DNA from: Nitrospinota bacterium
Lineage (GTDB): Bacteria; Nitrospirota; Nitrospiria; Nitrospirales; UBA8639
Reading direction: 5' to 3'
Assembly: GCA_022572725.1 (NCBI GenBank)
Contig: JACZVJ010000025.1
Coordinates: 1-32,571 of the forward strand
DNA length: 32,571 nt
Below the pieces are notes generated by a model. That model had not been told where the DNA came from. It ran no database searches and was given only the letters and a program-made list of their open reading frames with translations. A program made the translations under genes and the position numbers. Shown in pieces: positions 687 through 27,971 of this stretch (its first letter is position 1; every line of letters begins with the position of its first letter).

Positions 687-965
687 CTATTTGTCGGAAT
701 GACCGAGATCTTTTCCCGGGGCAATACGGTCTCGAATCAATTGCTTTAACTCCTTCGACTCCGGGAAGTGCCCTCGCTCCTGGCGAGACCAGATCGTTTC
801 TCCCTGAACCCGCACCTCAAACACCCCACCGGTTCCCGGGACCAAAGCTACTTCTCCCAACTCCGACTCAAACGTGGTCAACAACTCTTGAGCCATCCAC
901 GCCGCCCGTAACAGCCAGCGACATTGGGTGCAATATTCGATTTCCACGCGTGGTCGATTGCTCAT
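687..965 (-). CDS. SelW/SelT/SelH (Rdx) family thioredoxin-like protein, CXXC form
   Basis: A 92-residue protein of the Rdx family, the size of prokaryotic SelW homologues. It starts with a beta-strand (VEIEY) leading directly into Cys12-Thr-Gln-Cys15, the position of the family's CXXU/CXXC redox motif; here both are cysteines, so no selenocysteine machinery is needed. A second conserved block, GTGGVFEVRVQGETIWSR, matches the family's G-x-FEV...G..iwsR region. The family is thought to act in cytoplasmic thiol redox chemistry, but its partner is unknown and nothing nearby shows one. The start ATG follows an AGGG-type site in a short non-coding gap. The gene stands alone, with an ATPase tail remnant just downstream. 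Family assignment is firm; physiological role is not. Confidence 0.88.
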   Translation of the reverse strand: MSNRPRVEIEYCTQCRWLLRAAWMAQELLTTFESELGEVALVPGTGGVFEVRVQGETIWSRQERGHFPESKELKQLIRDRIAPGKDLGHSDK

Positions 966-1110
966 AGTGCACTACCCTTTTGTTGTTTCCGATCCGCCTT
1001 CCGGCGCTGGCCAGACTAGTCAGCTTTTCTGAACAAGAGAGGGCGACCTGAAGGCCGCCACCATTGATTCTTGCTCTTTCCGCCCTACGGATTCTTGTCC
1101 AACCTCCAGG

Positions 1111-2070
1111 TTAATATGGTGGCCGGCTGTTGCTGAGGCACAGATCGACCAGGTCGTCCAGACGCGCGGTCCCGGCACACATCACGGTGTCCGCGCCACC
1201 CCAGTAAATCTTTACGCCGCCGTCGTCATCCGCGACCGCACCGCAGGTAAAGACGACGTTGTGGACGTAGCCCGTGATCTCCCAGGGATCCTCTGGGGCC
1301 AGCACCCATTCGTCTGAGACGCCGATAATCTTCGCGGGGTTGGCGAGATCATGCAGCGCCACGCCGAGGCGATAGACCGCCCCGTCCATGGTCTCGAATA
1401 CCCCGTGGTAGATGCTGAGCCAGCCGCGCTCAGTGCGAATCGGGGGCGCACCGGGACCGATCTTCGACTCGTCCCAGTGATAGGGCACCGGTTTCATCAC
1501 CACCTCGGAATCGCCCCAGTGCACCAGGTCCGGCGACCATGACAGCCACACGGACCAGGGGCTGATCTCCGAATGGGGACGGTCCAGGCGGGCGTAACGG
1601 CCATTGAACCGCTCTGGGAAGATGACGATGTTGCGCATGTCCGCCTGCGTGATCAGTGCAACCCGCTCGACGGATCGAAAGTCCCGGGTCCTCGCCAGCC
1701 CGATACGCACACCGTGGCGTGAATAGGCGCTGTAGGTAATCAGGTATTCCCCGTCAATACACGAGACTCTGGGATCCTCTACTCCGAAGGCCTCGTATTC
1801 TGCAAATGCTCCTTCTGTCGACGGAATCATGAATGGTTCCGTTCCGGCCGTGAACTTGAACCCATCTTCACTCTCGGCGATCCCGATGATCGACCGACCA
1901 CTGCGCAGGTGGGATCGAAACAGCATGATGTAGCGCCCGTCGTGCCGTGCGATGCCGGCGTTGTGCACGGTCTCCACCGGATAGGGGATATCGTCCCTGG
2001 TGAGGATCGGGTTGGTCGGGCAGCGTTTGATCACCGGCCGAGTGTTACCAATGTTACGGGGAGCGGCCAT
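1111..2070 (-). CDS. GH130 family glycosidase/phosphorylase (short form)
   Basis: A 319-residue protein with the five-bladed beta-propeller signatures of GH130, whose members phosphorolyse (or in some subfamilies hydrolyse) beta-mannosides. Visible motifs are VEDPR at about residues 97-101 with the family-conserved acidic residue, GAPPIRTERGWLSIYHGV, GYVHNVVFTCGA and YWGGADT near the C-terminus. There is no signal peptide, so it should act in the cytoplasm on an internal or imported oligosaccharide. The start ATG has a strong GGAGG six bases upstream and lies inside the last codons of the GT4-cupin gene (17-base overlap), so the two are translationally coupled. Its length fits the short GH130 phosphorylases. 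The exact donor and acceptor sugars cannot be told from sequence; mannose linked to glucose, mannose or N-acetylglucosamine are all known in the family. Confidence 0.88.
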   Translation of the reverse strand: MAAPRNIGNTRPVIKRCPTNPILTRDDIPYPVETVHNAGIARHDGRYIMLFRSHLRSGRSIIGIAESEDGFKFTAGTEPFMIPSTEGAFAEYEAFGVEDPRVSCIDGEYLITYSAYSRHGVRIGLARTRDFRSVERVALITQADMRNIVIFPERFNGRYARLDRPHSEISPWSVWLSWSPDLVHWGDSEVVMKPVPYHWDESKIGPGAPPIRTERGWLSIYHGVFETMDGAVYRLGVALHDLANPAKIIGVSDEWVLAPEDPWEITGYVHNVVFTCGAVADDDGGVKIYWGGADTVMCAGTARLDDLVDLCLSNSRPPY

Positions 2071-3403
2071 AGTCGTCCTCCAACCGAATAATGTCGTCTT
2101 CTCCGAAATAGTCCCCCATCTGGACTTCTACAAAGACCAGCGGGATGTTGCCAGGGTTCATGATTCTGTGTACCGCACCCTTGGGTATGTCCACGGACTG
2201 CCCCGGCTTGAGCAGGGTCTCCTGTTCCCCGACCGTGACCAGGGCCACGCCGCTGACCACGGTCCAGTGCTCTGCACGGTGCCGGTGCTTCTGGAGACTC
2301 AGCCGCTTGCCCGGCTGGACGATGATCTCTTTGACCTTGTGATCGTCACGTTCGAGGAGGTTTTCGTAATGTCCCCACGGTCGGTGGTTCTCCCGGTCGT
2401 CGAGAATCCTCTGGTAGACGTCCAGGTATCGACGCGCCATGTGCTGGCAGGTGAAGCGTTCCTCCACCTCGTCCCGGCAGGCGCGCCGGTCGAGTGAGTC
2501 AATCCTGCCCACCGCATGAACGGCTGCGTTCACATCTGCCACGATAAATCCCGTGCCGCCGTCGCGAATGAGTTCCGACATTGACCCACGCCCAAATGCG
2601 ATCACCGGCGTGCCACAGGCCATGGACTCGACCACGCTCAGTCCGAAGGGCTCGTCGAAGTGGATCAGGTGCAACAACGCCAGCGCACCGCCCAGAACCT
2701 CTTGTCTTTTTTCCGGCCCGACGGAGCCGATGTATTTCACACCGGATCCATCGATGTGCGGCTCAACGTGTTCCTTGAAGTACACCTCGTCGTGCACGAT
2801 TCCCGCGATCACGAGCGGGATGCCAGTCCTGCGCGCCACCTCAATGGCTTCGTGGACACCCTTGTCGGGGTGGATGCGCCCGAAGAACAACAGGTAGCTT
2901 CCTGCATTTTCCCGATAGGGAAATTGGGCAAGATCGATGCCATGATGGATGGTTGCGATATAACCGAGTTCACGACACTTGTCGGCCTCACTGATAGCCA
3001 CGTAGTATGTCCGCTTGCTGTACTTTTGATAAACTGGCAAAATTGACGACGAAGAGAATCCATGTATGGTCGTGACGATCGGTGTATCGGTAAAACCACT
3101 GTAACTGAGCGGCAAAAAATCGAACTGGTTGTGAATCAGATCGAATTCATCCGCTCGCCTGAATACCTCTGCTATATGCAGGCACTCCCATACCTTTGGA
3201 TTGATCGAGGGGTCTTCTGAGTAGGGTCGTTCGCACACCCAGGCGAGTGTGCCACGGGTGAGGGAATCCCCGGTCGCAAACAGTGTCACATCTACACCCA
3301 TCGCCACCAACTGTTCCGTCAGGAGGCTGACCACGTTTTCCCAAGGCCCATAATGATGCGGTGGTGTACGCCAGGACAGGGGACTTAACATCGCAATCTT
3401 CAT
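2054..3403 (-). CDS. GT4 glycosyltransferase fused to a phosphomannose-isomerase-type cupin
   Basis: A 449-residue two-domain protein. Residues 1 to about 335 are a GT-B fold glycosyltransferase of family 4: an N-terminal KIAMLSP strand, a HHYGP glycine loop, the second-domain strand LLFFGRIHPDKG and the nucleotide-sugar E-x7-E motif EPFGLSVVE at 251-259. Residues 341-449 are a complete cupin of the type found at the C-terminus of bifunctional mannose-1-phosphate guanylyltransferase/mannose-6-phosphate isomerase (AlgA/ManC). It begins RPWGHYENL, carries the metal-binding block Q371-x-H-x-H-R-x-E-H379-W and ends with the GEDDIIRLEDDYGR signature. The guanylyltransferase domain is absent. If the cupin is active, the protein would interconvert fructose-6-phosphate and mannose-6-phosphate and also transfer a sugar; this pairing is inference. 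It is the first gene of a minus-strand pair with the short GH130, read away from the divergent promoter region at 3404-3715. Confidence 0.87.
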   Translation of the reverse strand: MKIAMLSPLSWRTPPHHYGPWENVVSLLTEQLVAMGVDVTLFATGDSLTRGTLAWVCERPYSEDPSINPKVWECLHIAEVFRRADEFDLIHNQFDFLPLSYSGFTDTPIVTTIHGFSSSSILPVYQKYSKRTYYVAISEADKCRELGYIATIHHGIDLAQFPYRENAGSYLLFFGRIHPDKGVHEAIEVARRTGIPLVIAGIVHDEVYFKEHVEPHIDGSGVKYIGSVGPEKRQEVLGGALALLHLIHFDEPFGLSVVESMACGTPVIAFGRGSMSELIRDGGTGFIVADVNAAVHAVGRIDSLDRRACRDEVEERFTCQHMARRYLDVYQRILDDRENHRPWGHYENLLERDDHKVKEIIVQPGKRLSLQKHRHRAEHWTVVSGVALVTVGEQETLLKPGQSVDIPKGAVHRIMNPGNIPLVFVEVQMGDYFGEDDIIRLEDDYGRSP

Positions 3404-3715
3404 GAAGGACCTACCTGCAAGACTCCTATACGCGGTGAGGTGGTGTTGTTAATAATCAGGAACAACTGTCCGACATAGTAACACGATGAGTTGGGCGGCC
3501 GACGGGAGAAGGAAACCCATGCCTGGTATCGGATGGGAACAACCACACGTTCCTGCACTATTGGATTGGCCAGGCATGTCGCCGGTGATGCCGTTGAAGG
3601 CCATCGTGCCTTGCAAAGAAAATGTTCATCGTATCATTAATTCAACTATTATACAGTGCGGATTGCAATGCAAGCTGCATCAGATGGAGAGGCCTCGTTC
3701 CGGGTTGACACAGGG
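3404..3715. promoter_or_regulatory. Divergent intergenic region between the two arms of the glycan module
   Basis: About 310 bases separate the GT4-cupin gene (leftward) from the long GH130 gene (rightward), so promoters for both should lie here. For the rightward gene a TATTAT -10-like hexamer sits at 3647-3652, with only a weak GTTCAT 17 bases upstream. A start near 3659 would leave a leader of about 57 bases, which argues against the GTG at 3656 as the true start codon. The stretch around 3440-3480 is AT-rich. I see no clear operator repeat. Confidence 0.35.
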
Positions 3716-5227
3716 ATGATGGAAACCAAACCTATCCCCCCCACTCTCCTTGCACGGCGCAAGGCGATCGTGATGAATGTGAAGATGGGCCGCGTCATTA
3801 CCCGACCCTATTTGCCTGTCGGTGAAGGACGTATCCGAAACGTCATCAACCGGGTGTTGAACCTGGACGAGGACCAGGCGTGTACGATACTGGAAACCAT
3901 CTTCCATGATTTCTCCCACCGTCACCGGGACTTCAGGGAGACGTTGGAGCGAAATTTCGAAAGAGTGGTCGGCTATATACCGGGTGTCGACAACCTGTCG
4001 AAACAACGGCGGCTTTTGATCGGCGCGTACTTTACCGCGGAATACTCTGTGGAGGCGGCGGCGTTGTTCAATCCCTCCATTGTGCGGTTTCCGAGTCAAG
4101 AAACGGATCCTGAAGGATCCTGCCGTTTCATTATGAGCTTCCGTGCCACCGGTGAAGGGCACATCTCATCCATCGAGTTTCGCAGCGGAATTATCGATAC
4201 GAACAACGATATCTACTTCGATCCCCTGAGCGACTATGTCGAAACTCCCGACATCCATCCCAATCCAAGCTATGACCGGCACCAGTTCCGGCTGAAACTC
4301 CAGGAAATGGGGGCGAGTAACCAGGTGACACAATGGCTCCTCAGCGAACTGTCGGACAAATTCACCTTCCACGACCTCCAGGGAAAGATCGCCGAACTCT
4401 GGAGCATCGACCATTTCACACCACAGGAGAAAGCGGGTGGCATCGAAATGGCGATGTGGCTGGCGCAATCCAATTACCAGATCTTCTTTCGCAAGGAGCA
4501 TCCGGTTTCCGAGCGGGTGATCTTTCCCGTGTCGGAATCCGAGCGCAAGGGAATCGAGGATGCCCGTTTCGTGCGTTTCGTTGATAATGACGGCACCGTG
4601 ACCTACTACGCCACCTATACCGCGTACAACGGAGAGACGATCCTGCCGCACCTCATTGAGACTGGAGACTTCTGCTCATTCAAGGTCACGACACTGAACG
4701 GAACACAGGCGCAGGACAAAGGAATGGCCCTGTTCCCGAGAAAGATCCGGGGACAGTACGCCATGCTGTCGCGCCAGGGTGGAGAGAACAACATGATCAT
4801 GTTCTCGGACAATCTGTACTTCTGGGAGAAGGCCCAAATTTTGCAAGAGCCTACGTTTCCATACGAATTCTTACAAATGGGGAACTGCGGCTCTCCCATC
4901 GAGACGCCTGAGGGTTGGCTGGTTTTGACCCACGGGGTTGGCCCGATGCGGACATACAGCATCGGAATCGAGTTGCTGGACCTGGAAGATCCGACCCGGA
5001 TAATCAGCCGGATCAAAGAGCCGATCCTGGTGCCGAACGAACATGACCGTGAGGGGTACGTCCCTAACGTGGTGTACAGTTGCGGTGCAATAATCTACCA
5101 GGACGAATTGATCATCCCGTACGCCTCGGGCGACCAGCGCTGCGGCATAGCGACTCTGCCGGTACCGCAGGTGATGGCCAGGCTGGCACAGAATTCCACC
5201 GATCCCATCCCGATGACAGCCCCATAG
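3716..5227 (+). CDS. GH130 family protein, long form with helical N-terminal extension
   Basis: A 503-residue protein from the chosen ATG. The C-terminal two-thirds carry GH130 propeller motifs: GIEDARFVRF with the family acidic residue at about 280-283, YATYTAYNG, GSPIETPEGWLVLTHGV, GYVPNVVYSCGAII and IPYASGDQRCGIA. The first roughly 240 residues are a mostly helical extension beginning near KMGRVITRPYLP. That places it in a different GH130 subgroup from the short protein at 1111-2070. The frame extends upstream to a GTG at 3656, but that lies on the probable transcription start, and the conserved sequence begins after the ATG pair at 3716-3721. There is no signal peptide. It is transcribed divergently from the GT4-cupin/GH130 pair and converges with the large GT4 gene, 22 bases away. 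Phosphorylase versus hydrolase cannot be decided from sequence alone. Confidence 0.85.
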   Translation: MMETKPIPPTLLARRKAIVMNVKMGRVITRPYLPVGEGRIRNVINRVLNLDEDQACTILETIFHDFSHRHRDFRETLERNFERVVGYIPGVDNLSKQRRLLIGAYFTAEYSVEAAALFNPSIVRFPSQETDPEGSCRFIMSFRATGEGHISSIEFRSGIIDTNNDIYFDPLSDYVETPDIHPNPSYDRHQFRLKLQEMGASNQVTQWLLSELSDKFTFHDLQGKIAELWSIDHFTPQEKAGGIEMAMWLAQSNYQIFFRKEHPVSERVIFPVSESERKGIEDARFVRFVDNDGTVTYYATYTAYNGETILPHLIETGDFCSFKVTTLNGTQAQDKGMALFPRKIRGQYAMLSRQGGENNMIMFSDNLYFWEKAQILQEPTFPYEFLQMGNCGSPIETPEGWLVLTHGVGPMRTYSIGIELLDLEDPTRIISRIKEPILVPNEHDREGYVPNVVYSCGAIIYQDELIIPYASGDQRCGIATLPVPQVMARLAQNSTDPIPMTAP

Positions 5228-5249
5228 GCAGTTGGGGTCACATCGATTT

Positions 5250-7595
5250 CTACGACGCCTCGCGGGCCTCCAATTGGGTAGGCTCTCCTTCCTGTGTGAC
5301 ACGATCCAAGCCGCGGTGGTTGTAAGCGGTGAGCAGCGCCATGAGCCAGCAAAGAGAGGACTCTGCCCCCTGATTTTCATTCGCGCCATGCGCTTCCAGT
5401 CCATCCCGGCAACCCCCGGTGGAGTGGTCGTAGAGCGGAACCCTCAGGTCGTTCTCCCCTTGGTACCAGTTGAGACACCGGTAAGCCTCAGTGATCCAAT
5501 CCTCGTCCCGCGTGCAGTTGAATGCCTCAATGCAGGCGTCCACCATCGCTGCCGCCTCGATGGGCTGTTGATCGAAACGCGCCTTTTCGCCGTCCCTGGC
5601 AAACCACCCCTGGTTGCCGATAGCGGTGAAATGGCGGCCTATCTCATCGGTCTGAACCTTCTTCAGCCAATCGAGCGCACGCAGACCCATCTCTAGCATT
5701 TCGTGGTCTGGAAGCCATTGCCCGGAAAGCAGCAAAGCCTGTGGCAGCCGGGCGTTGTCGTAGGTCAGGATATCCTCACACCAGGGCCAGTCTTCGGTGG
5801 CGGAATCCCTGAACTGTTCCATGAGCCGGTCGGAGAGTATCTTGCGCATCCTTCTCGCCCGACTGTCCCCACTGTAGCGGCAAAGATACGCATGAATACC
5901 GATGATGGCGAAGGCGATCGCCCGCGGGTGTGTGAAATGTTCGGTGGTCCCCAGCGCACGATGGAACAGGTCTACCGCAAAACCCACCTGTCCCTTATCC
6001 CGATCCAAAGCCACCGCGACGCCCAGCCCCCACACCGCGCGACCGTGGGAATCCTCCGAGCCTGCTTCCTCGAGCCAGCGATGATCAAAGGACATGAAGT
6101 TGCGGAACCGGCCAGTCTGATCATTGAAGGCATGGCCCAGAAAACTCAGGTACACGGTGGCAAGGTCGCTCAGCGAGGAATTCAAAGGTTGGAGGCCCTG
6201 TGCCATGACGGCGACAATCAACGCACGGGCATTGTCGTCCACGCAATAGCCGTGCGTCCGGTCTGGAACCGTGTACTTGGAGTGCTGAAGAATGCCCGTT
6301 CCATCGGTCATCCGGCGCACATGGTCCAGCTTGATCTCTGGTAGCCGTTGCTGGCGTAGTCCGAGGGTCTCCAGTCTCCGTACGGGTACGATCTTCCGCA
6401 ATCGCTGGCGTTTGGCTTCCACGAAGGCCTCGAGATAGCGGCGGCCTACGTTGCTCCAGACCATTCTTCGACCGTAGTCATAGGCTCTCTTCTGTATGGC
6501 GCGGAGCTCGTCGGGATGGTCCAGGAGGTCGATAACCTCCCGTGCGAGGTGAACGTGATCTCGGAACGGAACCAACCTGCCCCGACCGTCGGCGAGCAGC
6601 TCTTGAGCGTGCCAGTAAGGTGTGGAGACCACTGCTTTGCCCATCCCAAACGCATAGGCGAGCGAACCGGATATAATCTGCGCCTCGTTCAGGTACGGGG
6701 TGACATAAATATCTGCAGCCCCAATAAACTCCCGCAGGTCCTCGTCGGCCATGAAACGGTCGTGGAAGACAATGTGGTCCGCGACACCGAGCTTTTTCGC
6801 GCGCAGGTGAAGGCCGATTCGGTAGTCCTCCCCCTGTTCTGCCTTGAGGTGCGGATGGGTGGCGCCTACAACCAAGTAAATGACCTGTGGGTGGGCCTTC
6901 AGAATCTCCGGCAGGGCATCGATCACCGCCTCAATGCCCTTCCCCGGTGAAAGCAGGCCGGATGTCAGGATGACTCTCCTTCCCAATACGCTGAACTTTT
7001 CCTTGTAGGCGTCGGATCCAACGAACGGGACGTCAGGAATGCCATGGTGAATCAGGATAATTTTCTCCTCCGGCACCTTGTAGATCTCGCGTAGGAATTC
7101 GATTGACCGTTCACTCATTACAACCAGCCGGTCGGAGAATTCGGAGAGTTGCATCATGATGTGCCGGTCCTGAAGGGTCGGATCCTTCAGGATCGTGTGC
7201 AAAGTCGTCACGACGGGGATCTTGAGGTCGCGCAACAGCTCGATGATGAAGCTGCCCCGCTGGCCGCCGAATATGCCGTATTCATGCTGGAGACAGATCA
7301 CGTCCACCTGGTTGAGGTTGAGCAGATCAGCCGCCAGGCTATATTCGCTCAGGAGGCTCTGATTGACCTCGAACCGCACCTGAGACGGATAGGGATAGCC
7401 TTCAGGCCGGTCGTTCATCGCGACCACCCAACAAATTTTGTCCGGTGCATTCAGGGCGATGGAGTCAAGAAGATGCGAGGTGAACGTGGCGATGCCACAC
7501 TGCCTGGGGAGGTAGTTGCCGATGAGAACGACGTCCTTAAGTGTCTCCCATTCCGGCGGTGAGTCTGTCGTACTGAGAGATTCCATTGATGCCAT
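5250..7595 (-). CDS. Large GT4 glycosyltransferase with C-terminal alpha/alpha-type domain
   Basis: A 781-residue protein. Residues about 20-395 are a GT-B fold family 4 glycosyltransferase: GNYLPRQCGIATFTSHLL at the N-terminus (the CGIA loop common in this group), LQHEYGIFGG, HHGIPDV, TSGLLSPGKGIEAV and the donor-site region YLNEAQIISGSLAYAFG near 301-317. Residues about 420-770 form a helical domain with HGYCVDDNARALI, W..D.LTYDNARLPQALL and ...QPIEAAAMVDAC. These motifs suggest an alpha/alpha toroid, a fold shared by many glycan-active enzymes, so a second catalytic or glycan-binding role is possible but unproven. No signal peptide or membrane segment is seen, so it is probably cytoplasmic. 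The ATG at 7595 has only a weak ribosome site; a second ATG lies three codons in. The gene converges with the long GH130 and completes the module. Confidence 0.85.
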   Translation of the reverse strand: MASMESLSTTDSPPEWETLKDVVLIGNYLPRQCGIATFTSHLLDSIALNAPDKICWVVAMNDRPEGYPYPSQVRFEVNQSLLSEYSLAADLLNLNQVDVICLQHEYGIFGGQRGSFIIELLRDLKIPVVTTLHTILKDPTLQDRHIMMQLSEFSDRLVVMSERSIEFLREIYKVPEEKIILIHHGIPDVPFVGSDAYKEKFSVLGRRVILTSGLLSPGKGIEAVIDALPEILKAHPQVIYLVVGATHPHLKAEQGEDYRIGLHLRAKKLGVADHIVFHDRFMADEDLREFIGAADIYVTPYLNEAQIISGSLAYAFGMGKAVVSTPYWHAQELLADGRGRLVPFRDHVHLAREVIDLLDHPDELRAIQKRAYDYGRRMVWSNVGRRYLEAFVEAKRQRLRKIVPVRRLETLGLRQQRLPEIKLDHVRRMTDGTGILQHSKYTVPDRTHGYCVDDNARALIVAVMAQGLQPLNSSLSDLATVYLSFLGHAFNDQTGRFRNFMSFDHRWLEEAGSEDSHGRAVWGLGVAVALDRDKGQVGFAVDLFHRALGTTEHFTHPRAIAFAIIGIHAYLCRYSGDSRARRMRKILSDRLMEQFRDSATEDWPWCEDILTYDNARLPQALLLSGQWLPDHEMLEMGLRALDWLKKVQTDEIGRHFTAIGNQGWFARDGEKARFDQQPIEAAAMVDACIEAFNCTRDEDWITEAYRCLNWYQGENDLRVPLYDHSTGGCRDGLEAHGANENQGAESSLCWLMALLTAYNHRGLDRVTQEGEPTQLEAREAS

Positions 7596-7922
7596 TTTTG
7601 ACTGAAAACGTTGTGCAGGTGTGTGAACGATTGGACCTTGATACGCGAGTAGCCGAAGGCCACCGAAACTGTGTACCGTAGGTGGCCCTGGCAGCCTCTA
7701 TTGTACATGATTTCAAGGTGATTGACCTATCCGAGTATCTCATGTGTGCAGGCGGGGCCTGATCAACTTATCGACCGGAAGGCCTTGTGTCCCTGTCAGT
7801 GGCGAATTACGAATTCTCCTGTAAAAACAATCGCTTGAGCAGCATGATTCCCGATGGTAGTGGGTTCTTGCCAGAGAAGACACAAATCTACACACTCATT
7901 TCAATATCCAGACGGAGGCCTA
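7596..7922. other. Intergenic stretch before the toxin-antitoxin remnant
   Basis: I see no gene. It must hold the promoter of the large GT4 gene (leftward), where a TACAAT hexamer on the minus strand near 7704-7709 is a possible -10, and that of the antitoxin gene (rightward). Base composition falls from the GC-rich glycan module to the AT-richer region to the right. The last 12 bases contain the antitoxin ribosome site GGAGG. Confidence 0.4.
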
Positions 7923-8189
7923 ATGAACAACGCCATTCCCCTAAAAGAAGCACGCCAAAAGTTTTCCAGGTTGGTTGACCGGGCAGATCGGCAATCGGAA
8001 AGGTTTGTGGTCACCAAAAATGGGACTCCCAGAGCTGTGCTTATGAGTGCAGAGGAATGTGAAAGTTGGGTAGAAAGCTTGGAATTGATGCCCAACCCCA
8101 AAGCCGTCAAAACTTTGGAGCAAGGATTAAAGGAAGCCAAATCTAGAAAGGTGGCATCATTTAAAGAAGTGTTTGGCGAAGAGCTGTGA
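7923..8189 (+). CDS. Phd/YefM family antitoxin
   Basis: An 88-residue protein. The first 55 residues match the Phd/YefM DNA-binding antitoxin fold: IPLKEARQKFSRLVDRA followed by RFVVTKNGTPRAVLMSAEE, the typical strand-turn-strand of the family. The remaining acidic and lysine-rich tail (ending SFKEVFGEEL) is the part that usually wraps and neutralises the toxin. The ATG at 7923 has GGAGG five bases upstream; a longer frame from 7854 lacks such a site and is not used. Such proteins normally bind their own promoter and repress it together with the toxin. The downstream toxin frame overlaps its stop codon by four bases but is broken by stop codons, so this antitoxin appears to be orphaned. Confidence 0.87.
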   Translation: MNNAIPLKEARQKFSRLVDRADRQSERFVVTKNGTPRAVLMSAEECESWVESLELMPNPKAVKTLEQGLKEAKSRKVASFKEVFGEEL

Positions 8190-8437
8190 GAAAAGTCTGG
8201 CTCACTCCTTTGGCCTAAATAGCCCTCAAGACCTTCGAGCCAAACACCCTCCCGAAAATCAAAGAAGCCCTCCGGCACCTCGCCCAACACCCGCTGGAGG
8301 GAAAACCACCCAAAGGATTTAAAAAAGATACGGTATGGTCTTACCGGGGGTGGCCTTACCGCATTCTCTACCGACTTATAGGGACTGAATGACTCGATGG
8401 CTTAGCGGTCGAACACCGGAAGGATGTGTATCGCTAA
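8186..8437 (+). pseudogene. RelE/ParE-type toxin gene, inactivated by two in-frame stops
   Basis: Starting at the GTG that overlaps the antitoxin stop codon, the frame reads VRKVWLTPLA, stop, IALKTFEPNTLPKIKEALRH, then LAQHPLEGKPPKGFK, VWSYRGWPYRILYRLIGTE, stop, LDGLAVEHRKDVYR, stop. Apart from TAA at 8216-8218 and TGA at 8390-8392 the 84-codon frame is intact. Its content is that of a RelE/ParE mRNA interferase or gyrase inhibitor: a basic helix, a WxYRxxPYRI strand and the C-terminal H-R-x-x-VYR signature. The GTG start, four-base overlap with the antitoxin and family pairing all support a former two-gene toxin-antitoxin operon. Loss is by substitutions, not frameshifts, so decay looks recent. 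A sequencing error would have to hit twice to explain it. Confidence 0.85.
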
Positions 8438-8448
8438 AATGAGGCCCT

Positions 8449-10764
8449 TTACAGGGTGGTGCCGTGCATGCGGGCAAAGAGTTCCCAATCGAAGGGTTTA
8501 GGAGTCAGGGCATGAAGAGGCACAGCCTCAATGTTCCCTGAATCTCGGTAGGCCAACATGCAGCCGATTACCTGTTGAGGCTGCTCAACCAGGCGCTTGA
8601 TGACTTCGTACGCGAGGTGCTGAGCCATAGCCTTGTCCGTTGGGGTTGGAGGGGCCCCCCGTAAGGTATGACCTAGAATCGTGGCTTTTGTGGCCACGGG
8701 AAGTGGATAATGCGCAGTTTTCTTTTGACGATCACACTGCCACTGGACAAGCCTGTTGGCCACATACTGGGTCAGGCCGTGGGTTCCACCTTCCGGGTGG
8801 TGCCGATGAGGAGTCCGCTCTGCCACGATAAAAATATGGCTTTTGTTTGGGACCCCCAAGGTTTGGGTTAAATTCCCAAGGATAAACTCCTCAATATAAC
8901 TATCCGGATCAGGATGTTCGTTGACCAAAAGCCCTTCAGCTCTTGCCTGGTAGGCACAGGTCAGCGCGAGGTGGCCAGATCCCGCGCCCATCACCTCGAC
9001 GAAAAACACGGTTCCCATAGCCGCACTGGTGGCTTTGAGCGACTCGATTGATTGATTGGCTAACGCGACAGCTGAATGGAGTCCGAGCGAAGTGGTGCCA
9101 GCGATGTTGTCATCAATCGTGCCAGGGACTCCCACAACCTGGACACCATACCGTTCATAAATGGCACGAGCACCCCGAAGGCTCCCGTCTCCTCCAAGGA
9201 CCACTAAGGCCCCATCCTCCAGGTAAGGTTTGAGGTGGTGAATCGCCGCTTGTTGGACCTCTTCATCTTTAAAATCTTCGAATCGGCTGCTTCCGATGGG
9301 GCTGCTGGCGTGGTTGCTCATCCCCCGGGAATCGTGCTCGGAAACTGGCTCAATCCAATTATTGGCCAAGCCGAGAAAGCCGTGCTGAACAAAGAACACC
9401 TCGATGCCTAGACGGTTCCCGGTCACACGAAGTTCTTTTAAGGCCGCCCCGGCCCCGGCAAAATCGCCACCGGAGACCAAGGCCACGAGCCTCCGAATTT
9501 GACCAGGTTTAAGGGTCACACGGGCCTGACGATCCTGTTCCACAGTTATCCAGGCATCCCGTACCACCTTTTCCCGCTCTGAAAGCCCGACGGCAGTGGA
9601 GTACCCGGACAACTGCCCATGCTCAAAGGTCAAAAGGACCACGTTATCCTGCCCTTCTTTGTATCCACTGAATTCAGCAAAGGCTTCATGGAAAGGCCGT
9701 GGGTCCAGATAGATGATCAAGGCCCGCAAAGTGGAACTATGGGTGTAGAGACAGAGGACCTTGCCCTGGTGCGCCACACCCAACTGATGAAACCCGTCGA
9801 TGACATTCATATACAGTTCAAAGAAAGAGTGACCACCGGGGTAACTGTAGAGGGGGTGCTGGATGAGTCGCTTGGCGGTGCTGGCCTCCACTCCAAAGGC
9901 CTTGGCAGCTTCCTCGATTTCGGCTGTTTTATCGATCCCCGTGGCCCATCCAAAATCCTGGGATTCCAAAGCACACTCCGCTTCGGGCCGAGTGACCTTG
10001 ACCAACCCTGGAGCAATAGCAGCGATAACCCGTTCAAAGAGTTGTCGAGTATTGGGACTTTTACTGACCAGATGAATGAAGGTTTGCGGGTCAAGGTAAT
10101 TACTTAATTGAAGGTAATCTAACTGATGCTCCACTATCCCTAGCATTCGAGCCAGTCCGGCACCAATCGAATCCGCCTTGGGAAATCCCCGTTCTGGATC
10201 AAGGTAATTCGCGAGCCGGCACCCCACCCGATGCGTCTTGCTTTCCACTCGAGAGATGCCGTGTCGCATGGTGAATAACAGGGTCCGGTTAGCCAAATCA
10301 CGGGGCATGAGCCAAAACCGATCCTCTCCCATGTTGAGGACCGTTCGACTCTCCGTGAGCTGCGGGGTCAGATGTTGGCGGGGCACGATCGCCTCGGGAC
10401 GGCGGCGTGTCGGTTTCCGAATAGCACCAATTGGGGCTCGCAATATCGGAGACAGTTCCCCTCGGGCAAGGAGTTGGTTCCAGGCCGCGAAAAATACCAA
10501 CTCGTCTCCCCCGCAGTCCTCTCTTATAAGAGCGCTGCGGAGACCACGATACGTTTTGGCATCGGGTAGCCCGGCTTGCGCGCGTTGGACAAAAGCCTTG
10601 ATCGCTTCTGTAGCCTGGGGCACTCGACTCGATCGGGTTGGGTCTTTTATGACAGGGGTAGGAACTTCAAACCCATCAACATGCGGTCGTTGGGCAAGGG
10701 CTTCTCCATAGGCCAGAAGGCCCTTCACCGTGACAAAATCAAGCGTTCCCACTTCGGGGCTCAT
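8449..10764 (-). CDS. Histidine phosphatase-phosphofructokinase fusion
   Basis: A 771-residue protein with two recognisable parts. Residues about 160-390 resemble the histidine phosphatase (phosphoglycerate mutase-like) superfamily: LLFTMRHGISRVE with the RHG triad at 167-169, SYPGGHSFFELYMNVI, and LCLYTHSSTLRALI with the second histidine at 342. Residues about 425-771 are a PfkA-type phosphofructokinase: LVSGGDFAGAGAAL at the nucleotide loop, VVLGGDGSLRGA at 522-532, GVPGTIDDNIAGT at 545-557 (cognate of the PKTIDND catalytic motif, with the catalytic aspartate kept) and VEVMGAGSGHLAL (cognate of the EVMGR.aG block). Residues 1-150 have no fold I recognise. The start ATG follows AGGTGAGGA. 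It could phosphorylate fructose-6-phosphate and dephosphorylate a sugar phosphate on one chain, or the phosphatase part may be regulatory. Changes in the first glycine loop leave the phosphoryl donor uncertain. Confidence 0.82.
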   Translation of the reverse strand: MSPEVGTLDFVTVKGLLAYGEALAQRPHVDGFEVPTPVIKDPTRSSRVPQATEAIKAFVQRAQAGLPDAKTYRGLRSALIREDCGGDELVFFAAWNQLLARGELSPILRAPIGAIRKPTRRRPEAIVPRQHLTPQLTESRTVLNMGEDRFWLMPRDLANRTLLFTMRHGISRVESKTHRVGCRLANYLDPERGFPKADSIGAGLARMLGIVEHQLDYLQLSNYLDPQTFIHLVSKSPNTRQLFERVIAAIAPGLVKVTRPEAECALESQDFGWATGIDKTAEIEEAAKAFGVEASTAKRLIQHPLYSYPGGHSFFELYMNVIDGFHQLGVAHQGKVLCLYTHSSTLRALIIYLDPRPFHEAFAEFSGYKEGQDNVVLLTFEHGQLSGYSTAVGLSEREKVVRDAWITVEQDRQARVTLKPGQIRRLVALVSGGDFAGAGAALKELRVTGNRLGIEVFFVQHGFLGLANNWIEPVSEHDSRGMSNHASSPIGSSRFEDFKDEEVQQAAIHHLKPYLEDGALVVLGGDGSLRGARAIYERYGVQVVGVPGTIDDNIAGTTSLGLHSAVALANQSIESLKATSAAMGTVFFVEVMGAGSGHLALTCAYQARAEGLLVNEHPDPDSYIEEFILGNLTQTLGVPNKSHIFIVAERTPHRHHPEGGTHGLTQYVANRLVQWQCDRQKKTAHYPLPVATKATILGHTLRGAPPTPTDKAMAQHLAYEVIKRLVEQPQQVIGCMLAYRDSGNIEAVPLHALTPKPFDWELFARMHGTTL

Positions 10765-13118: not shown

Positions 13119-14519
13119 TCATGGGATATCTCGAATTTGAATCGAATCGACCCGTTGTTGAGCCAAGACGTCTGAGATAATCACGACTTTTTCCCCTGTG
13201 TGGAAATGTTCACGTTGTTTTAAAATCCTAAATGCGGTTTGCAACGTTTTTTCAGGGTCTGAGCTAAAACTGATCCGGAACGGATACACCCCTCGATTGA
13301 GGGTCATGGTCCGACGTGATTGACTCATGTTGGTAAAGGCATAAATGTTCGTGGAAAAAGGACGACAATTTGAGACAAAATCGGCCATGATGCCTCTTCT
13401 GGTAATCACCACAATCCCTTTGGCTTGTAACCCTTCTGCGAGCTTGACCGCAGCGACCGCCAATTGCTGTTTATCTGCGGTAATGTGTAGGTGTTTCGCA
13501 AATTGCAAGCCTGGAATCTCTTCGGTTTTGGTCGCAATTTTGCGCAGATGCTCAATACATTTAAGCGGATATTTACCCATGGCTGTTTCTCCGGATAACA
13601 TCACCGCATCGACTTCTTCATAGATCGCATTGGCCACGTCCGTCACCTCGGCACGTGTGGGAATGGGATGATGAATCATGGATTCCAGCAGGTGGGTCGC
13701 GACAATCACGCGTTTTCCATATTGCGCGCACAGCCGTACAATTTTGCGCTGCACATTCGGCAACTCTTCCAGGTTGATTTCCACACCCAAATCTCCCCGA
13801 GCCACCATAATGCCATCCGATTCCTGAATAATATCTTCCAGATTTTGAACCCCTTCCTGATTTTCAATTTTCGCAATGATTTTAATTCTCCCGGCTTTGC
13901 TGCCCATGAGGTGTTTTAATTGCCGAATATCCTCTGCCTCACGAACAAAAGAAAGGGCAATAAAGTCCACATCTTGAGATAAGCCAAACACGATATCTTT
14001 TTCATCCTTTTGAGTAATAGCGGGTAGGTTGACATGAATCCCTGGTAAATTGACATGGCGTTTACTTTTCAAGACGCCCCCATCCAGGACGCGGCATTGC
14101 ATGAGTCGATCTTCTTTTTCCAGGACTTCAAGGTTGATCAACCCATTATCCACGGTAATCTTATCTCCCACATTGACTGTCTGGATTAAATCGGCATAGT
14201 CGATGTGAATAGAACTTTCTTCCACATCCACTGGCCCTCGCGCTGTGATGGAAATGATCGTGCCTTGCTTTAAATCTAAATCGGTAGACAAGTCCCCTGT
14301 CCGGATTTCAGGGCCTTGCGTGTCCAAGAGAACAGGAATAGGAAATTCGACTTTTTTATTCAGCGTCTTGATGTGTTTGATCACTTTGGCGTGAGATTCG
14401 TGGTCTCCATGGGACATGTTCAAACGCACAATGTTCATGCCGGTGTCATACATTTTTCGCAACATCTCGTAGGATTCCGTAGCCGGTCCGATCGTACAGA
14501 TGATTCTTGTCTTTTGCAT
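13119..14519 (-). CDS. pyk: Pyruvate kinase
   Basis: A 466-residue protein, the usual length of bacterial pyruvate kinase. It converts phosphoenolpyruvate and ADP to pyruvate and ATP, the last step of glycolysis. Diagnostic motifs are KTRIICTIGPAT at the N-terminus, NMSHG, LLDTQGPEIRTG, the active-site block IAKIENQEGVQNLEDI with MVARGDLGVE, and DAVMLSGETAMGKYP. The C-terminal domain has the GIVVITRRG strand typical of the regulatory domain. I chose the ATG at 14519 behind AGGGACGG; the frame extends 20 codons upstream without conservation. The gene stands alone and is AT-richer than the glycan module. Two direct repeats lie on either side of it, so it may sit in a mobile or recombination-prone segment, though the gene itself looks intact. 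Confidence 0.97.
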   Translation of the reverse strand: MQKTRIICTIGPATESYEMLRKMYDTGMNIVRLNMSHGDHESHAKVIKHIKTLNKKVEFPIPVLLDTQGPEIRTGDLSTDLDLKQGTIISITARGPVDVEESSIHIDYADLIQTVNVGDKITVDNGLINLEVLEKEDRLMQCRVLDGGVLKSKRHVNLPGIHVNLPAITQKDEKDIVFGLSQDVDFIALSFVREAEDIRQLKHLMGSKAGRIKIIAKIENQEGVQNLEDIIQESDGIMVARGDLGVEINLEELPNVQRKIVRLCAQYGKRVIVATHLLESMIHHPIPTRAEVTDVANAIYEEVDAVMLSGETAMGKYPLKCIEHLRKIATKTEEIPGLQFAKHLHITADKQQLAVAAVKLAEGLQAKGIVVITRRGIMADFVSNCRPFSTNIYAFTNMSQSRRTMTLNRGVYPFRISFSSDPEKTLQTAFRILKQREHFHTGEKVVIISDVLAQQRVDSIQIRDIP

Positions 14520-14783
14520 AAGGCCGTCCCTGGAATGTGAATGATCCTCAATTGTGCAATAACTCATCAGATTCAGCAATGCGGGCGGTATGAGTGGCCC
14601 GTTTGACCAGAACGTGTCACAGACCTTTCAGGAGCCAAGCCGGTGGTTTCGATTGCCAGGGGAACAGGAACTTGCGGTGGCCCAGGTCAACCTTTGGCGG
14701 GCGGCAAACCAACGCCCTGACCCAACAGGAGACCGACGTCCTAACCAAGGAGGAAAAGGGGGCATTCTGGTTTTTTGAGGGGT

Positions 14784-22671: not shown

Positions 22672-22724
22672 CTGGCGGACCCTTCGGCTATGCTCAGGGC
22701 ATGCTTTTTCAACACCCTGCTAGG
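22672..22724. repeat. Intergenic repeat, partial copy downstream of the bactofilin gene
   Basis: CTGGCGGAC (22672-22680) and CTTTTTCAACACCCTGCTAG (22704-22723) match the end of the repeat at 21755-21783, here separated by about 23 extra bases containing CCTTCGGCTATGCTCAGGGC. The two copies bracket the bactofilin gene in the same orientation. Confidence 0.55.
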
Positions 22725-26380: not shown

Positions 26381-27526
26381 CTAACAACTCCGTTCCACCG
26401 CACGGACGAAATTCTGACAGGTTTCGACCACCTTGTTGGGATGTTGAAGTAAGGTTCCTCCCACAACCACCATGACCTCCATACCGAACAATTCCAATAT
26501 TTCAGGAATTCTCTCCAAACCCAAATGTCCCCCAACGGCCGGCAATATCGCCTTCATATGCCTCAGTGGTTTACCGGTTTCCCCAGCGATCTGAGCACAC
26601 TGGTCTCGTGAAATCGAAAAGTCTCTTCCAAAGACAGGGAACAGGCTCGCATCGACACCAAATAGCCTGGGGATTTGGCCGAACAGCACTGACGGGGCAA
26701 TCCCGGTATCGTCATGAACAATCAGACTGCCAAGCCCGCCTGGATGGCCGAGAATCGGCAAAGCCAGGTCTTTATGAACAGCCAAGCACCGAATGACATC
26801 AAAACCCGTCATGCCCGGACAGATCAATAACCCACCGGCACCAGCTTCTCCAGCAAACAGAGCCCGGGGCAGAATCTGGTCGAATGGCCCAGTGACGTTC
26901 GGCAGATACAGAGCATTCCGCCCGGTCTGTTGATTGGCTTTCTCCACAGCCTCCGCACAGCGTCGGACACGTTCTTCAAAAGGACAAAAGGCCTGGTTGG
27001 CTAGTCCTTGATCGTCCTTGATGATATCCAGGCCTCCGAGGGCGTAGGAATAGGCCAACTTCGCCAGATCCGTGACACACAGGCCGACCGGCTTTAAAAC
27101 GCCGCAGAGCAACGGTCGTTGAGGTTGCCCTACCTTTTCCCGAAGGCCAGCCCGACCAAAGCGAGGACCGTTCATTCCGTCTATGAGCGACTTGGAGAGC
27201 TCAATGGATGAAACCCGAATTCCTGGTTTCAAGCTCAACATACCAAAGACGATTTGGAGCAGGTGAGGCAACTCACTTCCCGTCACCTCAACAGCGAAAC
27301 TGACAACGGCCTCATAGACATCAAGCGCGACTGGCCGAAAGCCCTCTAAGCGCCCGAGGATGTGGTTTCGTATCTCCTCGTTCGGGACAAGTTCGGCCGA
27401 CATCTCAACCGTTTGGTCAAGACAAATGGCTTCAGCCTTTCTCCGCGCATCACCTTCGGCACCCTTCACGTGGTAGTGGACAGCAAACCGTTCTCCAGAA
27501 AGACCGAGGGAGGAGGAAGGAGTCAT
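26381..27526 (-). CDS. RuBisCO-like protein (form IV)
   Basis: A protein of about 381 residues with the RuBisCO large-subunit fold. Numbered from a TTG codon 7 triplets upstream, conserved landmarks are GVLKPVGL (Lys152 equals RuBisCO K175), GGLDIIKDDQGLANQ (Lys177 equals the carbamylated K201, Asp179 equals D203), LPAVGGHLGLERIPEILELF and GGTLLQHP. Two residues needed for CO2 fixation are changed: the K177 position is Val154 and the E204 position is Gln180, and the loop-6 GKLEG lysine segment is absent. It is therefore a form IV RuBisCO-like protein and probably an enolase or isomerase in sulfur or sugar metabolism; the subgroup needs a tree. ATG 27526 is preferred. No methionine-salvage genes are nearby, so no pathway is assigned. 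Confidence 0.9.
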   Translation of the reverse strand: MTPSSSLGLSGERFAVHYHVKGAEGDARRKAEAICLDQTVEMSAELVPNEEIRNHILGRLEGFRPVALDVYEAVVSFAVEVTGSELPHLLQIVFGMLSLKPGIRVSSIELSKSLIDGMNGPRFGRAGLREKVGQPQRPLLCGVLKPVGLCVTDLAKLAYSYALGGLDIIKDDQGLANQAFCPFEERVRRCAEAVEKANQQTGRNALYLPNVTGPFDQILPRALFAGEAGAGGLLICPGMTGFDVIRCLAVHKDLALPILGHPGGLGSLIVHDDTGIAPSVLFGQIPRLFGVDASLFPVFGRDFSISRDQCAQIAGETGKPLRHMKAILPAVGGHLGLERIPEILELFGMEVMVVVGGTLLQHPNKVVETCQNFVRAVERSC

Positions 27527-27971
27527 CGGATTCGACCAAGGGCCCAACTGGTGGAAGGATCGGACCCTGAGTTTGGAGAAAACCGGTTACGAATATCGAT
27601 CAACTGAGACAAATGAACCCAAATGGGAAAAGCCTGAACTTTCCTGGAAGTTTTCTCGTCGTCATGCCGATAAGGACAAAGTGAGGCATTGAGAACCAAC
27701 TGGCTGAGGAAGCAGGGATCTAAGGGGATGCTGTCAAGGCTAGTTTGGCTGGACACGAAACCCTAGGTCAAACCTTCCCCTCTTAGGCTCCTTTTGAGGG
27801 ACACCCCTTGATTCTTTCCGTTGGGATCCTCAGCAAAGCCGTACTAGGTAGAGAATTTAAAAACCCCTAGGCATCCAAGAATCAACGGAACGTAACTATC
27901 CAACGGGGCCTCTTCCGGAGGCACCCCCGAGTAGATACCAGCCCAAACACTGCTCATGGAAGGATACGACC
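27527..27971. other. Intergenic region without a visible gene
   Basis: 445 bases between the RuBisCO-like gene (leftward) and a small exported protein gene (rightward). I see no supported gene or clear terminator. A GATGCTGTCAAGGCTAG word near 27728-27744 faintly recalls the MITE end at 20967 but lacks the partner end. The promoter of the RuBisCO-like gene should lie in its left part. Confidence 0.45.

Follow-up and report, generated by a model that had tools for sequence, protein, structure and literature searches.

Two described systems come close to the locus studied here, a four-gene module in the window, i.e., the whole 32,571-nucleotide contig JACZVJ010000025.1 of the 3.17-Mb draft genome of a Nitrospinota bacterium (GCA_022572725.1). 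The first is Teth514_1786-1789 of Thermoanaerobacter sp. X-514, where two GH130 proteins of different kinds lie beside a GT4 glycosyltransferase and a GDP-mannose pyrophosphorylase (GMPP), and which its authors interpret as a route that salvages imported oligomannan for GDP-mannose (PMC4264767). The second is the mannogen of Leishmania, an intracellular mannose reserve whose beta-1,2-mannan is both made and phosphorolysed by enzymes of the GH130 fold (PMC8950772). The four open reading frames (ORFs) of the module fill positions 1111-7595 and encode proteins of known families: a short and a long GH130 (GH130s and GH130L), a GT4 fused to a cupin of the type II phosphomannose isomerase (PMI) kind (GT4-cupin), and a GT4 fused to a helical half (GT4-alpha/alpha). 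ORFs and Pfam matches agree with an earlier, sequence-only reading of this DNA, which had placed four genes with these domains there. The Thermoanaerobacter cluster is the nearest described arrangement, and the Leishmania mannogen is the nearest physiology. However, the former includes genes for an ABC importer and a GH5, and its two GH130s are both short (PMC4264767). Neither a GT4-alpha/alpha nor a PMI fusion has been reported for it, whereas the module has both, together with a long GH130 carrying Gln407, and an importer was found neither among the module's constant neighbors nor in the unit it shares with a related genome. As for mannogen, its summary in PMC8950772 describes no GT4 partner. 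The module had been put forward as an undescribed system, and the open-access literature searched, with subscription papers outside that search, held no description of it. We propose, with a probability of about 0.58, that it moves horizontally between genomes and serves, in the cytosol, to build up and recycle a mannan or a mannose-containing oligosaccharide.

The gene set is a real unit and not a chance grouping, because genomes from at least eight phyla have it too. A scan with the GH130L alignment, using one genome per species, gave at least 569 confirmed stretches, and the best 80 were retrieved; partners were counted in the 44 of these best 80 loci that are flanked by 3.5 kb or more on each side. 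These loci were picked by GH130L alone, so that the partner counts are not circular, but related species among them are not independent. A GT4-alpha/alpha gene lies within 6 kb of GH130L in 41 of the 44 loci, a GT of the GT4-cupin type is near it in 25, and all four genes are together in 21. GH130s never occurs without a GT of the GT4-cupin type (0 of 44). Over the best 80 loci as a whole, the four-gene set is present in 28. It was found in Gammaproteobacteria, Desulfobacterota/Myxococcota, Spirochaetota, Bacteroidota, Balneolota, Eisenbacteria, Melainabacteria, and Bacillota, to which an Ilyobacter plasmid adds Fusobacteriota. The two-gene form (GT4-alpha/alpha and GH130L) occurs in Verrucomicrobiota, Acidobacteriota, Planctomycetota, and others. 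The sequence-only reading had made its case depend on the genes being kept together elsewhere, and this is what other genomes show. Clustering of the neighbors of relatives gave generic families only (kinases, ABC ATPases), without a constant extra partner and without a transporter, secretion, or export gene as a constant neighbor. A wider conserved unit was rejected, and only in some cases do GDP-mannose genes join the four. In one gammaproteobacterial locus (L022, 4246-9655), the four-gene set is accompanied by an additional GH130L copy that has diverged further (44% identity).

Three features speak for horizontal transfer of the module as one unit: its scattered occurrence, its sharp edges, and flanks that vary from genome to genome. 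In blastn comparisons, a genome of the same family (G027) shares positions 1089-7599 at 92.7% and 7708-7862 at 82%, with no match on either side. A third genome (L016) shares the module end at 1109, on the GH130s side, with a tRNA-Lys gene, a usual integration site, some 145 bp away. In a set of 60 genomes from the family and order, matches were confined to the window's own genome, G027, and G016, the last for the short GH130 alone, and GH130L is present in 4 of 396 genomes of the phylum, counting the window's own (E <= 1e-60). Outside the family, the closest kin of GT4-cupin are in gammaproteobacterial metagenome-assembled genomes (MAGs; 96% SH-aLRT), where gene order and orientations are identical. 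A viral origin was rejected, since GT4-alpha/alpha had no match in IMG/VR and phages gave a weak match to the GT4 only. Several features lie around the borders. An ORF resembling, by eye, a Phd/YefM antitoxin (7854-8189) stands at the edge of the transferred unit and is followed by an interrupted reading frame of a RelE/ParE-like toxin (8190-8440). Just past the left edge is a 92-residue ORF (687-965, minus strand) with a CxxC motif, SelW/Rdx-like by eye. Window positions 22673-22712 and the module flank of L016 (1451-1490) have a 41-bp intergenic repeat in common, at 88% identity.

The genes adjoining the module in relatives, for GMPP, phosphomannomutase (PMM), and PMI, make a strong sequence-based case for a link to mannose, and the mannose theme of the sequence-only reading is borne out. 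In three sphingomonad plasmids (L105, L108, L112), the genes for GroEL, GMPP, PMI, GT4-alpha/alpha, GH130L, and PMM stand in line. Four more have GMPP, GT4-alpha/alpha, and GH130L adjoining grpE-dnaK-dnaJ, some of them also with genes for a universal stress protein, Dps, and Hsp20. These seven loci are interrelated and count as few events rather than seven. Plasmids of Sinorhizobium and Devosia have a PMI gene ahead of the GT4-alpha/alpha and GH130L pair, and a MAG of Bacillota (L067) encodes an 846-residue GMPP-PMM fusion (7237-9777) between GH130s and GH130L. The PMI itself takes different forms. It is a fused type II cupin in eight relatives and the window, and an adjoining type I PMI in Gammaproteobacteria and alphaproteobacteria, which in two gammaproteobacterial loci stands where the window has the fused cupin. 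The window genome encodes a full GMP-PMI (C4:12922-14337) followed by a PMM-family gene, and by this sequence evidence it can make GDP-mannose by itself. No type I PMI was found in this genome. The fused cupin was rejected as its sole PMI source, since a separate GMP-PMI is present. On the sphingomonad plasmids, the GMPP-GT4-GH130 block sits inside stress islands (L105, L106, L108, L109, L111, L112, L115) with groESL or grpE-dnaK-dnaJ, Hsp20, universal stress protein, Dps, BON, and zwf/gnd genes. These islands recall the transmissible locus of stress tolerance.

Both GH130 proteins belong to the family by profile, at 189 and 105 bits against a cut-off of 26 (PF04041). In this family, beta-1,2 specificity goes with a Glu before the catalytic Asp and a Lys equivalent to Lys199 of BT3780, phosphorylases are told by three basic residues in the phosphate site, and hydrolases have Glu at the phosphate-site positions (PMC4599007). 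The solved sequence closest to GH130s is TM1225 (1vkd, E = 2.3e-56). In GH130s, all aligned active-site residues are present (N37, R52, E98-D99, R164, K203, H222, Y233, and D294) and invariant in 33 of 33 members. GH130s has the residues expected of a phosphorylase (the catalytic Asp and the mannose-binding Asn and Asp, at D99, N37, and D294, with R164, K203, H222, and Y233 for the phosphate site), and is likely to be one. E98 is kept, but position 146, a Lys in characterized beta-1,2 enzymes, is Arg in 33 of 33, such that the beta-1,2 signature is incomplete and we assign no linkage.

GH130L was modeled (AlphaFold2, pLDDT 89) as a five-bladed propeller with a helical N-terminal segment and a helical insert around it. 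Its first 28 residues are of low confidence, and the true start may be a downstream ATG. The best fold match is Teth514_1788, a 1,2-beta-oligomannan phosphorylase (E = 1.6e-21), and the top matches are all GH130 structures. In contrast, the Leishmania GT108 enzyme MTP-4 (6q50) comes at rank 36 (E = 5e-7) and is absent from the sequence-profile matches; GH130L is a GH130 by profile and not a member of GT108. Residues N139, R163, E301-D302, K355, R373, H426, Y434, and D493 are invariant (83 of 83), including E301 and K355 of the beta-1,2-specific signature, and the residues for catalysis and mannose binding are thus kept in both GH130 proteins. Position 407 is Lys or Arg in known phosphorylases and is presumably part of the phosphate site, given the alignment and Lys212 of Uhgb_MP; here it is Gln in 65 of 83 members and Lys in 18. 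Because of this Gln407, GH130L seems to fit neither the phosphorylase nor the hydrolase class cleanly, and its reaction is uncertain. Gln407 was rejected as a marker of the four-gene system, since it is found in all 32 four-gene members but also in 33 others. The 18 members with Lys407 are mostly Verrucomicrobia and relatives of Geothrix, and are thus confounded with clade.

The GT half of GT4-cupin is 44% identical, over 339 aligned residues, to the glucosylsucrose synthase TeGSS (tll1591; 7fg9/7fga). The two share the catalytic Tyr, Arg, Lys, and Glu: the diphosphate and catalytic residues Y18, R176, K181, and E251 are kept in 38 of 38 members, as is the pattern of a retaining GT4 (R176, K181, E251-x7-E259). 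TeGSS is a retaining alpha-1,2-glucosyltransferase without a cupin that acts on UDP-glucose and sucrose, and salt or heat stress causes its product to accumulate (PMC9909042). We rejected a glucosylsucrose synthase identity for GT4-cupin, where the catalytic residues are kept but those of the sucrose cavity (W10, Y97, R117, and W254 in TeGSS) are replaced. The fused cupin resembles that of GMP-PMI (ManC), sharing PF01050 and TIGR01479 (positions 356-467), and its HxH-E-H metal motif is intact in the window (H373, H375, E378, H412 region). Unlike GMP-PMI, it lacks the guanylyltransferase part, is joined to a GT4, and has a degraded motif in most of its fused homologs. The window, G027, and L030 keep the second His of HxH, whereas it is Arg, Lys, Gln, or Leu in L027, L036, L037, L052, L062, and L076. 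The proposal that the cupin makes mannose-6-phosphate is therefore split: the window protein, with PF01050 and intact ligands, is a likely PMI, whereas PMI catalysis as the general role of fused cupins is doubtful, because six of the nine fused members compared have lost the metal motif.

The GT half of GT4-alpha/alpha has PimA, PimB', and MshA as profile and fold relatives. Its EX7E motif is unusual: the second Glu is replaced by Leu312 (67 of 68 members) and the first is not invariant. The other half is all-helical in the model (AlphaFold2, mean pLDDT 87.5) and matches no Pfam family at E <= 5. Its only solved relative is 7tem, the uncharacterized YPO2471 of Yersinia pestis (profile E = 2.6e-16). 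Residues D453, D454, D515, E607, Q676, Q677, N741, and E745 are each kept in 66 to 68 of 68 members and, as a group of conserved acids and amides, resemble a second active site.

The coordinates are given in Table 1. GH130s and GT4-cupin overlap by 17 bp, and the region 3404-3655 separates this minus-strand pair from the plus-strand GH130L. The idea of a module built around one divergent promoter holds for these three genes, but GT4-alpha/alpha lies outside that region and is convergent with GH130L (gap of 22 bp), and so must have its own promoter beyond 7595. Region 3404-3655 is about 90% identical in G027 (L015), including its GTTGTT-N10-AACAAC motif. Scans for consensus promoters, which covered this region, gave no excess over shuffled sequences, and the Rfam, promoter, and terminator scans returned nothing. 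Elsewhere in the window, we observed a 771-residue protein with a C-terminal phosphofructokinase domain and a weak histidine-phosphatase match (E = 0.0067) in its N-terminal 400 residues (8449-10764), a pyruvate kinase gene (13119-14579), and a RuBisCO large-chain-like protein (26381-27547; PF00016, E = 9.4e-27) that may be RuBisCO-like rather than a true RuBisCO.

Table 1. Features of the four-gene module in window coordinates
Feature	Coordinates	Strand	Basis
GH130s, short GH130, 319 aa	1111..2070	-	PF04041, E 1.1e-55; predicted beta-mannoside phosphorylase
GT4-cupin, whole gene, 449 aa	2054-3403	-	GT4 domains and PF01050 (type II PMI domain)
GT4 half of GT4-cupin, residues 1-335	2399..3403	-	Identity to TeGSS
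PMI-type cupin, C-terminal, residues 336-449	2054..2398	-	PF01050, E 3.7e-42
Divergent intergenic region, 252 bp, GT4-cupin/GH130L	3404..3655	.	
GH130L, long GH130, 523 aa from GTG	3656..5227	+	PF04041, E 5.2e-30
GT4-alpha/alpha, whole gene, 781 aa	5250-7595	-	GT4 domains and 380-aa C-terminal half
GT4 half of GT4-alpha/alpha, residues 1-400	6396..7595	-	GT4 domains
Alpha/alpha half, residues 401-781	5250..6395	-	Helical model; no Pfam family
Transferred unit, full extent	1089..7862	.	blastn vs G027 contig

From these data, we infer the substrates, the product, the direction of flux, and the physiological role as follows. Fructose-6-phosphate would be converted to mannose-6-phosphate by the PMI-type cupin here and by separate PMI enzymes in other carriers, and then to mannose-1-phosphate and GDP-mannose by the PMM and GMPP encoded elsewhere in the window genome. 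One or both retaining GT4 enzymes could put an alpha-linked sugar on a primer, giving an alpha-linked core to which the GH130s would add, or from which they would remove, beta-mannosyl units. GH130s would act as a phosphorylase (beta-mannoside and phosphate to alpha-mannose-1-phosphate, and back), and GH130L may either phosphorolyse a beta-1,2-type linkage or handle it in a synthase-like reaction. Mannose-1-phosphate would be the hub, which in lean times could be released to glycolysis via PMM and PMI. An internal role is in agreement with the sequence-only reading: a simple hydropathy scan revealed no signal-peptide-like N-terminal hydrophobic segment in the four proteins, and no transporter or secretion gene is a constant neighbor.

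Several points weigh against this proposal. GT4 enzymes retain configuration and make alpha-mannosides from GDP-mannose, whereas GH130 enzymes invert and act on beta-mannosides with alpha-mannose-1-phosphate (PMC8950772; PMC4264767). Hence, the product of the GT4s cannot simply be the substrate of the GH130s. The proposal needs at least one further assumption about the glycan or about the GH130 reaction: either the glycan contains both anomers, or GH130L has a synthetic role. The simpler scheme of the sequence-only reading, in which two GT4s build and two GH130s phosphorolyse, conflicts with this stereochemistry, and GH130L lacks one aligned basic residue of the phosphate site; its Gln407 weakens the case for a phosphorylase. 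Furthermore, TeGSS, the nearest characterized relative of GT4-cupin, uses UDP-glucose and not GDP-mannose (PMC9909042), the alpha/alpha half has no assigned function, and a GMPP-type match is absent in the carrier genomes of L017 and L045, whose assemblies may be incomplete. A more specific version of our proposal, which we regard as tentative and rather unlikely, would be a widespread and horizontally spread bacterial counterpart of the mannogen cycle: a mixed alpha/beta mannan or mannoside inside the cell, serving as reserve or stress protectant, with the Gln407 protein GH130L as a beta-mannosyl synthase of a new kind on the GH130 fold and GH130s as the recycling phosphorylase.

The alpha/beta problem would be sidestepped if the module served salvage, the GH130s phosphorolysing imported beta-mannosides to mannose-1-phosphate, which would feed, via GDP-mannose, an unrelated GT4 glycan, as in Teth514_1786-1796. 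There, the same kinds of genes (GT4, GMPP, and two GH130s) are grouped, and both GH130s are proven beta-1,2-mannoside phosphorylases (PMC4264767). However, that cluster has five ABC-transporter genes and a GH5, whereas here neither a transporter nor a secreted mannanase is a constant neighbor or lies in the unit shared with G027. The core pair is also nearly always accompanied by a GT, and the lifestyles of the carriers are unrelated. We thus consider salvage unlikely.

Slightly less probable again is a role in compatible-solute synthesis, in which the two GT4s would produce a small, non-reducing alpha-oligosaccharide (of the glucosyl- or mannosyl-sucrose or -glycerate kind) and the GH130s would trim it or cap it with beta-mannose under stress. 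The 44% identity of the GT4-cupin GT to a synthase whose product builds up under salt or heat stress (PMC9909042) and the chaperone, Hsp20, universal stress protein, and Dps genes next to the sphingomonad copies fit this idea. The loss of the TeGSS acceptor-cavity residues does not, and stress genes are not neighbors in the window or in most other carriers; moreover, the idea overlaps with a recycled mannose glycan rather than excluding it. Stress protection is suggested by the sphingomonad chaperone neighbors and the nearest GT relative, and a reserve function would be equally possible. The storage or osmoprotectant role first suggested stays conjectural: the host also has a glycogen branching enzyme, and the stress argument comes from those two observations. 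A replacement of glycogen was rejected: the branching enzyme is over the cut-off in the host and in 4 of 13 other carriers and weak or absent in the rest, without a pattern. It is very improbable that the module makes a lipid-linked or cell-surface mannose glycan on which the GH130s would carry out trimming or quality control, since, despite the likeness of the GT4 halves to PimA, PimB', and MshA and the frequency of GT4s in surface glycan clusters, no flippase, polymerase, exporter, or polyprenyl-phosphate transferase is in the unit or a constant neighbor, and signal peptides are lacking.

The idea of a recycled internal mannose glycan is made directly testable by the sphingomonad plasmid copies, which are in cultivable strains and have the line of GDP-mannose genes beside chaperones. 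If it is true, it would provide new enzymes for beta-mannosides, which are hard to synthesize, and a physiological role for a large uncharacterized branch of GH130 and for the GT4-alpha/alpha fusion. Many bacteria, from at least eight phyla, would then run an unrecognized internal economy of mannose glycans, which they acquired as one 6.5-kb unit.

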